A stretch of DNA of 33,545 nt from a virus. Numbering within the stretch: position 1 is the stretch's first letter; every line of letters begins with the position of its first letter. Made by a program: the position numbers and the translations under genes. The notes under the pieces were generated by a model. The model searched no databases. It saw only the letters and a list, made by a program, of their open reading frames with translations, and was not told the DNA's origin. Of the stretch, positions 2,379-6,612 are shown piece after piece. The stretch is taken from the IMG/VR virus record IMGVR_UViG_3300020582_000027, positions 1 through 33,545 of that record; one strand, 5' to 3'.

Positions 2379-2418
2379 GAGGTTTTGCGAGAAAGTTCGA
2401 ACAGCCGGCCACGCTTGT

Positions 2419-2452
2419 TCGAAATTGGTTTCCTATCGAAATTGGTTTCCTA
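2419..2452 (+). repeat. Two contiguous 17-bp direct repeats, third degenerate copy downstream
   Basis: TCGAAATTGGTTTCCTA occurs twice head to tail (2419-2435, 2436-2452). A diverged copy TCGATTGTGGTTTTCTA is at 2465-2481. A further TTCGAA lies at 2396-2401. Iteron-like or operator-like, in the only long non-coding gap of the left arm. Confidence 0.75.
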
Positions 2453-2644
2453 ATCTGCAACCGTTCGATTGTGGTTTTCTAGAAATACCAATGACCAGCC
2501 AAAACTCATGAAACCGATCCGATGGGTAACTACTGCCTGCCCATGGTCGCTGCGCTCTGCATCGCTCTCTGGGTCGTGTAGGGCTATTTGCTGCAGAGTA
2601 ACCGGAAGTTGCCTAAAGTAGTCAAAGAAAGTTTGCCAGATCGT

Positions 2645-3232: not shown

Positions 3233-3255
3233 GCCCGGCTCCGGCCGGGCATTTT
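3233..3255 (+). terminator. Intrinsic terminator with UCCG tetraloop
   Basis: GCCCGGC-TCCG-GCCGGGC, a perfect 7-bp stem with a UNCG-type loop at 3233-3250, followed by ATTTT. The T-tract runs directly into the -35 box of the next promoter. Confidence 0.85.
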
Positions 3256-3853: not shown

Positions 3854-4303
3854 ATGACGACAGTACGCGAAGAGTACCCGGCCGAGTACGAGGCCGGATT
3901 CAAATTCGAGCGCTACGGTACCAAACCGGAAGTCTTCTGCGGAGGCGCGTATATCGAGGGCGAGCCCGGAGCTGCTGAGAAAGCTGACCGGTACTCCGCT
4001 TTCTGCGAAGGGATGTGCGACGGCACTCGTGCTCGTTGGGCGGCCGGAGGCGCGACCGATCGCGAGCGCGAGCTACTAGAGCAGGGTCACGCGGCGCAGC
4101 GGGCTCGCGGTATCGAGCCGCTGCCTATGCCGCCGACCTTCCGGCCGGTACCGGGCTCCGAGTATTTCGGAGAGATCAGCCGTTGTTGGTTCGCGACCGA
4201 CAGCGGAGACGGCGAAGTCATCCGTGCGGAGCCGACCCGAGAGCAGTCCGACAGCCCGGACGTCTGGCCCCTGACCGAGGACACCGTATGGGGTCCGGAG
4301 TAA
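3854..4303 (+). CDS. Hypothetical protein
   Basis: 149 residues from ATG 3854. Longer upstream starts would read through the promoter and leader, so this start is used. The first half looks compact (EYEAGFKFERYG, CGGAYIEG, FCEGMCDG); residues 60-90 are charged and helical (TDRERELLEQGHAAQRARG); the end is acidic. Family not recognised. It is a single-gene unit downstream of its own promoter; the next element is a structured RNA rather than a gene. Confidence 0.72.
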   Translation: MTTVREEYPAEYEAGFKFERYGTKPEVFCGGAYIEGEPGAAEKADRYSAFCEGMCDGTRARWAAGGATDRERELLEQGHAAQRARGIEPLPMPPTFRPVPGSEYFGEISRCWFATDSGDGEVIRAEPTREQSDSPDVWPLTEDTVWGPE

Positions 4304-4308
4304 ACCGG

Positions 4309-4337
4309 TAGCGCGCTCCGGATCTATGGAGTAGAAT
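4309..4337 (+). promoter_or_regulatory. Promoter of candidate noncoding RNA (TAGCGC-N17-TAGAAT)
   Basis: TAGCGC at 4309-4314, a 17-nt spacer and TAGAAT at 4332-4337. The same GTAGCGC-N17 arrangement occurs before -10 boxes at 5617 and 7049, and ATGGAGTAGA is shared with the latter. Confidence 0.55.
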
Positions 4338-4343
4338 TGCGAT

Positions 4344-4506
4344 AGTTAGCTGCGCCCCTTTGAGTGGTTCCTTCCGGGCGCGGCTAGCAGCGCCACCCGC
4401 GCAACACAATCTAACCAGCGGCTTGCTCAGACTGATCCCGTGATGTATGGCGGTAGGCTTGTTCCGCTGGCGACTATGATTGGACTTCGACGCGGGTGGC
4501 GTTTTG
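4344..4506 (+). ncRNA. Candidate structured noncoding RNA, about 160 nt
   Basis: No coding frame fits here. Transcription from the TAGAAT box should begin near 4344. The RNA could fold into a 5' hairpin, UAGCUGCGCCC (4347-4357) with GGGCGCGGCUA (4376-4386; 11 pairs, one G-U). It could also form a long-range perfect 11-bp stem, CGCCACCCGCG (4391-4401) with CGCGGGTGGCG (4491-4501), which encloses a 7-bp stem CCAGCGG (4415-4421) with CCGCTGG (4464-4470). The closing stem is followed by TTTTGCG, so the 3' end is also a terminator. A small regulatory RNA is the best reading. A tRNA was looked for and not found. Confidence 0.6.
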
Positions 4507-4531
4507 CGTTCTGGAGAAAATGGCCTATACT
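4504..4531 (+). promoter_or_regulatory. Promoter TTGCGT-N16-TATACT
   Basis: -35 TTGCGT at 4504-4509 sits in the T-run that ends the noncoding RNA; -10 TATACT at 4526-4531. A leader with CGTAGGCGAAC and AAAGGCGAGAACG precedes ATG 4568. Confidence 0.68.
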
Positions 4532-4567
4532 TGCCGTAGGCGAACTAACGTAGCAAAGGCGAGAACG

Positions 4568-5041
4568 ATGACTGAGACGACTGACCGGAAGACCTGGGAG
4601 ACGGAGCCCTGCGAGAAGCACGATCTGACGTGCTGCGGCGACTGTCTTGAGCAGGCCAAGCTGAAGCGCGACGAGCACGGTGACTTCCAGTACCGGAGCG
4701 ACTGCGCCGTACAGACGTACTCGGAGATCACCGGTATCAGCTACAGCATCGCGGCCTCGATTATGCTTGCGAACGGATTCCGTCCGGGAGTCGGCACGCG
4801 CGGCAGCGACCTCCGCGCCGCATTCGAGCAGACCGGTCTGACGGTCACCAATGTCACCTACATGGGCCCTGAAGGCGCAGTCGTGGCGTCGATGGAGGAA
4901 GGCCGGAAGTTCTACGTCCACGGCACCAAGGGCAAGCGAGCCCACGCATGGTCCATCACGGACGGCAACGAGAACCGGCCTTACTTCCCTCCGTACAACT
5001 ACCGTGTGTTTGAAGTCACGTCACCGGATTTTGACTTTTAA
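4568..5041 (+). CDS. Putative papain-like (C39-like) cysteine-protease-fold protein with Zn-binding N-terminus
   Basis: 157 residues from ATG 4568. An N-terminal CEKHDLTCCGDC (15-26) looks like a small zinc site. The rest has the order seen in papain-like/C39-type domains: a Cys at the start of a helix (SDCAVQTY, C46), a GTRGSDL turn near 77-82, a strand with FYVHG (115-119), and a His before an Asp/Asn (AHAWSITDGN: H126, D132, N134). C46/H126/D132 could be a catalytic triad. Phage proteins with this pattern are common, but I know of no assigned substrate. A peptidase, deubiquitinase-like or inactive structural role are all possible. Confidence 0.62.
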   Translation: MTETTDRKTWETEPCEKHDLTCCGDCLEQAKLKRDEHGDFQYRSDCAVQTYSEITGISYSIAASIMLANGFRPGVGTRGSDLRAAFEQTGLTVTNVTYMGPEGAVVASMEEGRKFYVHGTKGKRAHAWSITDGNENRPYFPPYNYRVFEVTSPDFDF

Positions 5042-5596: not shown

Positions 5597-5622
5597 CGCT
5601 CTGTGCGTCTGTGCGCTATACT
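5594..5622 (+). promoter_or_regulatory. Promoter TAGCGC-N17-TATACT
   Basis: TAGCGC at 5594-5599 and TATACT at 5617-5622, 17 nt apart. The leader GATAGGCGAAAACGAAAGG and GGCGAGGACA precede GTG 5653. Confidence 0.6.
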
Positions 5623-5652: not shown

Positions 5653-6612
5653 GTGGAACTTAGCAAGACGATGACGAGGGTTCGCGGGCTGATCGCGAAG
5701 GCCGAGAGCCTTGAGGCGATAGGCGACCCTGAGAGCATGAACGAGGCCGTGGCGCTCCGCGCGAAGGCGAACGAGATGATGGACCGGTACGGCCTTGAGG
5801 AGTGGGAGCTTCTGAAGGATGCTCCGACCGGATTCAAGCCAACCCGTATCAAGGTAGACATCGGAGAGGCCGGCAACCCGTTCCTATCCGAGACGTCTAC
5901 GCTCGTGAACGTAGTCGCGACCTTCTGCAAGTGCTCGTCCGTGTGGATGAAGGGCTCCGGCTACAAGAACGTCCGCGAAGAGTACTGCTACGTGTACGGG
6001 TACGAGAGCGACCTGCGGTATTTCGAGCTGCTGTTCACCACGATCTACCTCCACATGGCAGAAACGATCTTCCCCAAGCCCGACCCCAACCAGTCGCTAG
6101 GCGAGAACGCTTACGAGCTTCACAACGCCGGACTCAACTGGTTCGACATCGCGCAGGCGTACGGCTGGGAGCAGACCGATAGCTGGATGGGCGAGCCCAA
6201 GCTCATGTACCGTAACCGGGCGACCGGCGAGCGTGCCTCGTGGGGCAAGAGCATCGGCCGGATCAAGTCGGCTTACACCGCCGAGATCAAGGCTCGCGGC
6301 GAGGACGCTTTGCGTATCCCTCCGTCCGGCTCCGAGAACTTCCGCCGCAACGCGGTTCAGGGATACCTCCACCGGATCGCTCAGCGGCTCCGGGAGATCA
6401 CCGGGAAGCGCGGCACCGGGATGGAGCTAGTTCTAGCGGACAAGTCCCAGAATATCCGCGCGATGATCGACAGCGACTTTGACAAGGTCCGGATGGAACG
6501 GAACAAGGATGTCAAATACAACGCTGCGGCTTACCGGCGAGGCGTCAACCACGCCAACACGGCGAGCCTTCAGCCGGAGGCATCCGCCGCGCCGCGCGGC
6601 GAGCTAAACTAG
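5653..6612 (+). CDS. DUF2786-domain protein
   Basis: 319 residues from GTG 5653. The upstream ATG at 5611 lies before the -10 box and cannot be used by this promoter. Residues 8-50 (RVRGLIAKAES, then MNEAVALRAKANEMMDRYGL) match DUF2786, a helical hairpin of the form KxxxLLAKAES...EAxxAxxKAxELM. The middle is a mixed alpha/beta domain with Tyr/Cys-rich strands (EYCYVYGYESDLRYFELLF). The end is basic and helical. DUF2786 proteins are frequent in actinobacteria and their phages and their role is unknown. It is closed by a strong hairpin at 6618. Confidence 0.75.
   Translation: MELSKTMTRVRGLIAKAESLEAIGDPESMNEAVALRAKANEMMDRYGLEEWELLKDAPTGFKPTRIKVDIGEAGNPFLSETSTLVNVVATFCKCSSVWMKGSGYKNVREEYCYVYGYESDLRYFELLFTTIYLHMAETIFPKPDPNQSLGENAYELHNAGLNWFDIAQAYGWEQTDSWMGEPKLMYRNRATGERASWGKSIGRIKSAYTAEIKARGEDALRIPPSGSENFRRNAVQGYLHRIAQRLREITGKRGTGMELVLADKSQNIRAMIDSDFDKVRMERNKDVKYNAAAYRRGVNHANTASLQPEASAAPRGELN

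Follow-up and report, generated by a model that had tools for sequence, protein, structure and literature searches.

The window analysed here is a 33.5-kb IMG/VR virus contig (33,545 nucleotides). Given that it encodes a DnaE-like polymerase, an exonuclease and a Sak4-like protein, together with tail proteins on the opposite strand, the window is assigned to a phage. The polymerase is ~47% identical to those of Mycobacterium phages, and the host is probably an actinobacterium. None of the GenBank phages is close to the window at the DNA level, and the lineage is one of poorly known soil phages.

The region under study, 4309-4508 on the plus strand, lies between two protein genes and is antisense to no gene in the window. 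Its features and those of the flanking cassettes, all on the plus strand, are the following.

3854-4303 (+): upstream cassette gene, 149 aa, no family; its homologue precedes an HNH-like gene in the relative L068
4309-4314 (+): -35 box TAGCGC, read from the sequence, followed by a 17-nt spacer
4332-4345 (+): extended -10 and start region TAGAATTGCGATAG, with the promoter family pattern TA...TTG...TAG
4345-4388 (+): 5' hairpin A, 13 bp, with the 18-nt loop CUUUGAGUGGUUCCUUCC; pair probabilities 0.93-1.00
4391-4401 (+): 5' arm of the closing stem P1, GC-rich, 11 bp; pair probabilities 0.99-1.00
4407-4411 (+): 5' arm of stem P2, 5 bp, pairing with 4478-4482; probability 0.98
4415-4421 (+): 5' arm of stem P3, 7 bp, pairing with 4464-4470; probability 0.95-1.00
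4464-4470 (+): 3' arm of P3, pairing with 4415-4421
4478-4482 (+): 3' arm of P2, pairing with 4407-4411
4491-4501 (+): 3' arm of P1, pairing with 4391-4401; also the putative terminator stem
4502-4505 (+): T-run of the putative intrinsic terminator (TTTTGCG); the hairpin-TTTTGC-promoter arrangement is also seen at 3252 and 3797
4526-4539 (+): promoter of the next cassette, TATACTTGCCGTAG, a member of the promoter family that drives gene 4568-5041
4568-5041 (+): downstream cassette gene, 157 aa, no family; syntenic anchor in relatives

The gene units of this region share one plan, comprising a promoter, a short leader, a gene and a hairpin with TTTTGC, the T-run of which overlaps the following -35 box. 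The 3' end of the candidate RNA keeps to this plan: the closing stem is followed by TTTTGCG, the promoter at 4526 and gene 4568, and the T-run overlaps the -35 box of that promoter (TTTGCG, 4503-4508). A T-run or TTTTG doubling as the -35 box of the next family promoter was observed at 3252, 3797, 4502 and 5028 (+) of the window, and this compact overlap of promoter and terminator recurs through the early region and in relatives.

Promoter and predicted fold

The phage possesses its own promoter family, made up of TATACTTGNNNTAG and closely similar sequences, preceded at a distance of 17 nt by a -35 box. A preliminary description of the locus had proposed a TAGCGC-N17-TAGAAT promoter, and its parts were all found in place, with TAGAAT at 4332-4337. 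This promoter also proved to be of the phage's own type, as a matrix built from 34 family promoters, from which the site at 4332 was excluded by construction, gave that site 22.9 bits. When the whole window was scanned on both strands, exactly six sites reached at least 22.9 bits, the five others being part of the training set of the matrix; the seventh-best site, which is the first outside the family, scored 11.7 bits. Gene starts are located 22-30 nt downstream of five of the six sites, while the sixth, at 4332, drives no gene. Across the relatives, a gene start was found within 60 nt for 37 of the 48 matches to the promoter motif. The TAGCGC-N17 arrangement looks poor when compared with the usual consensus. 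It recurs ahead of the TATACT in the 5617 promoter, which drives the conserved gene 5653-6612 and scores the same 22.9 bits, and it is likewise carried by L032/L058.

By its sequence, the promoter at 4332 appears sigma-70-like, the other members of its family each driving a single small gene, and transcription of the candidate RNA would start at A4344/G4345. Membership of this site in the phage's promoter family is the strongest support for the putative RNA gene. The promoter grammar is strict, nearly every copy leading to one small gene, and this makes an orphan copy stand out; RNA genes may thus be findable from sequence alone in this soil-phage lineage.

With regard to the fold, the segment 4344-4505, the ends of which are set by the promoter and the T-run, gave a z of -4.41, and none of 200 shuffles was as stable. 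The long-range stem P1 was recovered exactly as first described, with 11 Watson-Crick pairs, every one of which has a probability of at least 0.99. It runs straight into the expected TTTTGCG, which agrees with the proposal that the closing stem doubles as the terminator, and we regard P1 and TTTT as a candidate terminator at the 3' end of the RNA. Perfect stems of at least 11 bp running into TTTT were absent from all 3,000 shuffles, whereas a Watson-Crick stem of at least 11 bp anywhere in the region occurred in 12 of 3,000; with G-U pairs allowed, 71 of 3,000 had two stems of at least 11 bp that did not overlap. With a span of 111 nt, P1 differs from a compact terminator hairpin, and a simple terminator scan of the window does not list P1 with its T-run.

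The 5' hairpin, which had been described as 11 bp at 4347-4386, is present but two pairs longer, and its 13 bp include two G-U pairs. The 7-bp stem P3 was also found as described, but the interior in which it lies is no more stable than shuffles. P2 is an additional stem that was absent from the preliminary description. The interior (4402-4490), which contains both P2 and P3, gave a z of only -0.29 when folded alone, and off-register 160-nt windows over the region were unremarkable in this GC-rich genome (best z -1.8). The excess stability therefore resides in the 5' hairpin and the closing stem.

Database searches and relatives

In keeping with the earlier reading that no coding frame fits, codon scores of the candidate region are negative in all six frames (best -0.11); those of the neighbouring genes range from +0.20 to +0.26. 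Six-frame translation revealed no protein relative, the only matches being short and weak and falling mostly in the promoter stretch that the neighbouring cassettes have in common. A remnant of a protein gene was rejected, as the six-frame translation shows no relic. Rfam gave no match at gathering thresholds nor at permissive ones (E up to 10), and a 6S RNA was rejected on the same covariance-model search; a tRNA or tmRNA was rejected as well, since ARAGORN finds none in the window. DNA searches of GenBank phages and plasmids returned only short chance matches. The closing-stem pattern was found in 12 stretches of the IMG/VR contigs, of which only the one in contig L014 (relative G001) matches the window, the other 11 being unrelated. 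The exact loop sequence has four matches in genome contigs, all of them within open frames of unrelated organisms, where the hairpin is absent. No direct precedent was found in the literature on actinophage small RNAs. The proposal of a new phage RNA sequence is thus consistent with the searches of Rfam and of known phages: the predicted sequence family is new, and its kind, a phage small RNA, is already known.

The sole relative carrying the RNA is IMGVR_UViG_3300021404_000032 (G001), 98% identical, which brings the total to two phages. Its copy differs by 3 substitutions in 161 positions and by a CCA insertion before the T-run, and folds with a z of -2.70. The promoter stretch shows no change in 41 positions; 6-13% of the third codon positions of nearby genes differ. 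Few stretches are better conserved between the two phages than the promoter and the segment, and their low divergence suggests constraint, in a comparison in which some 100-nt coding stretches are equally similar.

A covariance search among related phages had been proposed as a check. A model built from the two copies and run over ~520 kb of relatives recovered only these two, the next hit having an E of 1.7, and copies that are 98% identical are too alike for the lack of a compensatory change to weigh against the fold. One stem change is uncompensated, namely G4378A in G001, which breaks a pair of hairpin A; the other two substitutions fall at loop or weakly paired positions. The preliminary view of a structured noncoding RNA consequently stands as regards a unit with its own promoter and terminator; that its fold is conserved is a conjecture, given a single, nearly identical relative.

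More distant relatives share the neighbouring genes at roughly 45-75% protein identity, and neither DNA search nor the covariance model found the RNA in their contigs. L068 has homologues of both 3854 and 4568, and what separates them there is an HNH-like gene, itself equipped with a family promoter. The RNA thus appears to be an accessory cassette. With regard to the protein family of gene 5653, a genome scan found no cellular or prophage copy.

Proposed function and rival explanations

Phage small RNAs are usually found only through RNA sequencing of infected cells and, to our knowledge, few are known outside phages of Gram-negative hosts. On the basis of its promoter grammar, noncoding sequence and terminator, region 4309-4508 is a good candidate small-RNA gene. 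We consider that there is about an even chance that it encodes an accessory phage small RNA of a new family, transcribed independently and acting in trans. The evidence is sequence-based, comprising promoter membership, noncoding character, two strong stems, cassette position and presence in two phages, and from it we infer both transcription and action in trans. The phage's own family promoter would start transcription near 4344 and yield an RNA of ~160 nt, ending at the closing stem and TTTT near 4505; its gene would be one of a row of small accessory cassettes, each transcribed independently. During infection, the RNA may act in trans: the 18-nt loop, held out by the rigid 13-bp hairpin, would base-pair with at least one mRNA of the host or the phage, and stabilisation of the 3' end and termination of transcription would fall to the GC-rich rod. 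The loop is favoured as the pairing site because it is long, open and borne by the most stable stem. That it is the active part is nevertheless doubtful: when the loop, the apex and the internal loops were compared with the phage's translation starts, pairing was no better than with shuffles (P = 0.55 for the best target of the loop). Should the RNA prove real, the loop and the rod would be direct handles on phage control of the host.

Regulatory small RNAs are established in phages, among them OOP, PreS and c4 (PMC12197685). The c4 antisense RNA of phages P1 and P7 pairs with the phage's own ant mRNA, and its loops are thought to carry target-complementary segments (PMC12197685). The candidate resembles c4 in being a structured phage RNA, but has no sequence relation to it, and no target was found for the candidate. 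OOP of lambda is transcribed from its own promoter, pO, antisense to cII, whereas the Hfq-dependent PreS of lambda targets host dnaN (PMC12197685). Both are phage-encoded small regulatory RNAs, and a promoter of its own is shared by OOP and, by prediction, the candidate RNA; unlike OOP, the latter is antisense to none of the genes in the window. Grad-seq of PhiKZ identified intergenic ncRNA candidates, ~100 nt between two phage genes (PMC8545117). The candidate RNA is likewise intergenic, but those of PhiKZ were seen as transcripts whereas ours is predicted from sequence, and phage, host and sequence all differ.

The main rival is a structured RNA that binds a protein instead of an mRNA, acting as a decoy or mimic, for instance by holding the host's RNA polymerase as a 6S-like rod or by luring away a host defence or decay protein. 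An RNA of this type would equally have its own promoter and terminator, and, like 6S RNA, the candidate is shorter than 200 nt and forms, by prediction, one long rod with internal loops; an accessory slot in the early region, where relatives carry other small genes, would also suit it. However, neither 6S nor any other Rfam model matched at E up to 10, the inner rod is no more stable than shuffles, and the candidate has an additional 5' hairpin, which 6S RNA lacks. We consider protein binding unlikely.

The segment could also be a leader or attenuator of gene 4568: transcription begun at 4344 would terminate at the closing stem or continue into the gene, which would thereby gain an additional regulated promoter. 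Its position immediately before the gene and the terminator at its end fit this view, and a structured segment between promoter and gene is present in the 5653-family leader of the relative G016. A strong family promoter at 4526, placed after the terminator, serves gene 4568 itself, however, and makes a leader function less likely; in addition, the segment is missing upstream of the 4568 homologues in relatives, and no alternative anti-terminator fold was seen on informal inspection. The odds are accordingly well against this reading. The absence of any RNA gene, with the segment serving as a terminator or insulating spacer, a DNA cruciform or a protein site, and the promoter weak or decayed after loss of a small gene, would fit a variable slot that holds an HNH-like gene in L068 and a -35 box of the weaker TAGCGC type. 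Nevertheless, the slot holds no protein relic, the promoter and segment belong to the best conserved stretches between the two phages, and the equal-scoring promoter at 5617 drives a conserved gene. Because of the promoter, we regard a non-transcribed spacer as the least likely of these explanations, and as quite improbable.

Further noncoding elements

A second noncoding element was observed at 2475-2620 (+) of the window, with counterparts at L032 5500-5644 and L028 593-738, and is conserved further than the 4309-4508 RNA. The copy in the distant relative L032/G011 aligns over 146 nt with hardly any gaps and 70.5% identity, and the substitutions show no coding pattern on either strand. RNAalifold indicated changes on both sides of 7 of 39 pairs, in three sequences only. 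The element has no Rfam match, and its covariance model finds no further copies. It has also moved: in the window it precedes the 2703-3218 gene, and in L032 it follows the homologue of that gene. The noncoding stretch at L032 5500-5650 was considered as a counterpart of the 4309-4508 RNA and rejected, as it matches ~2475-2620 of the window instead.

An unrelated structured noncoding stretch is present in the same syntenic region of the relative G004 (L027 8277-8425, minus strand; z = -3.35), between two terminators. It is absent from L034/L036 and has no family promoter. Together with the 4309-4508 RNA and the element at ~2475-2620, this stretch would be a candidate member of a set of RNA cassettes. 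That each phage of the lineage has an unrelated structured RNA of its own within the promoter-terminator array, as an interchangeable cassette of the same standing as its small protein cassettes, for host takeover or anti-defence, is a speculative idea and very unlikely to hold.

In G016, a TATACTTG promoter is separated from the 5653-family (DUF2786) gene by the segment L047 11146-11256. This segment is strongly paired (z = -2.25), could form a pseudoknot and has no match in Rfam; it is possibly a regulatory leader. The same contig shares a repeated GTTCGAAATTGGTTTCC-like motif with the window (2416-2450 in the window and L047 8874-8898, 92% over 25 nt), which may be an operator or a replication-origin element.
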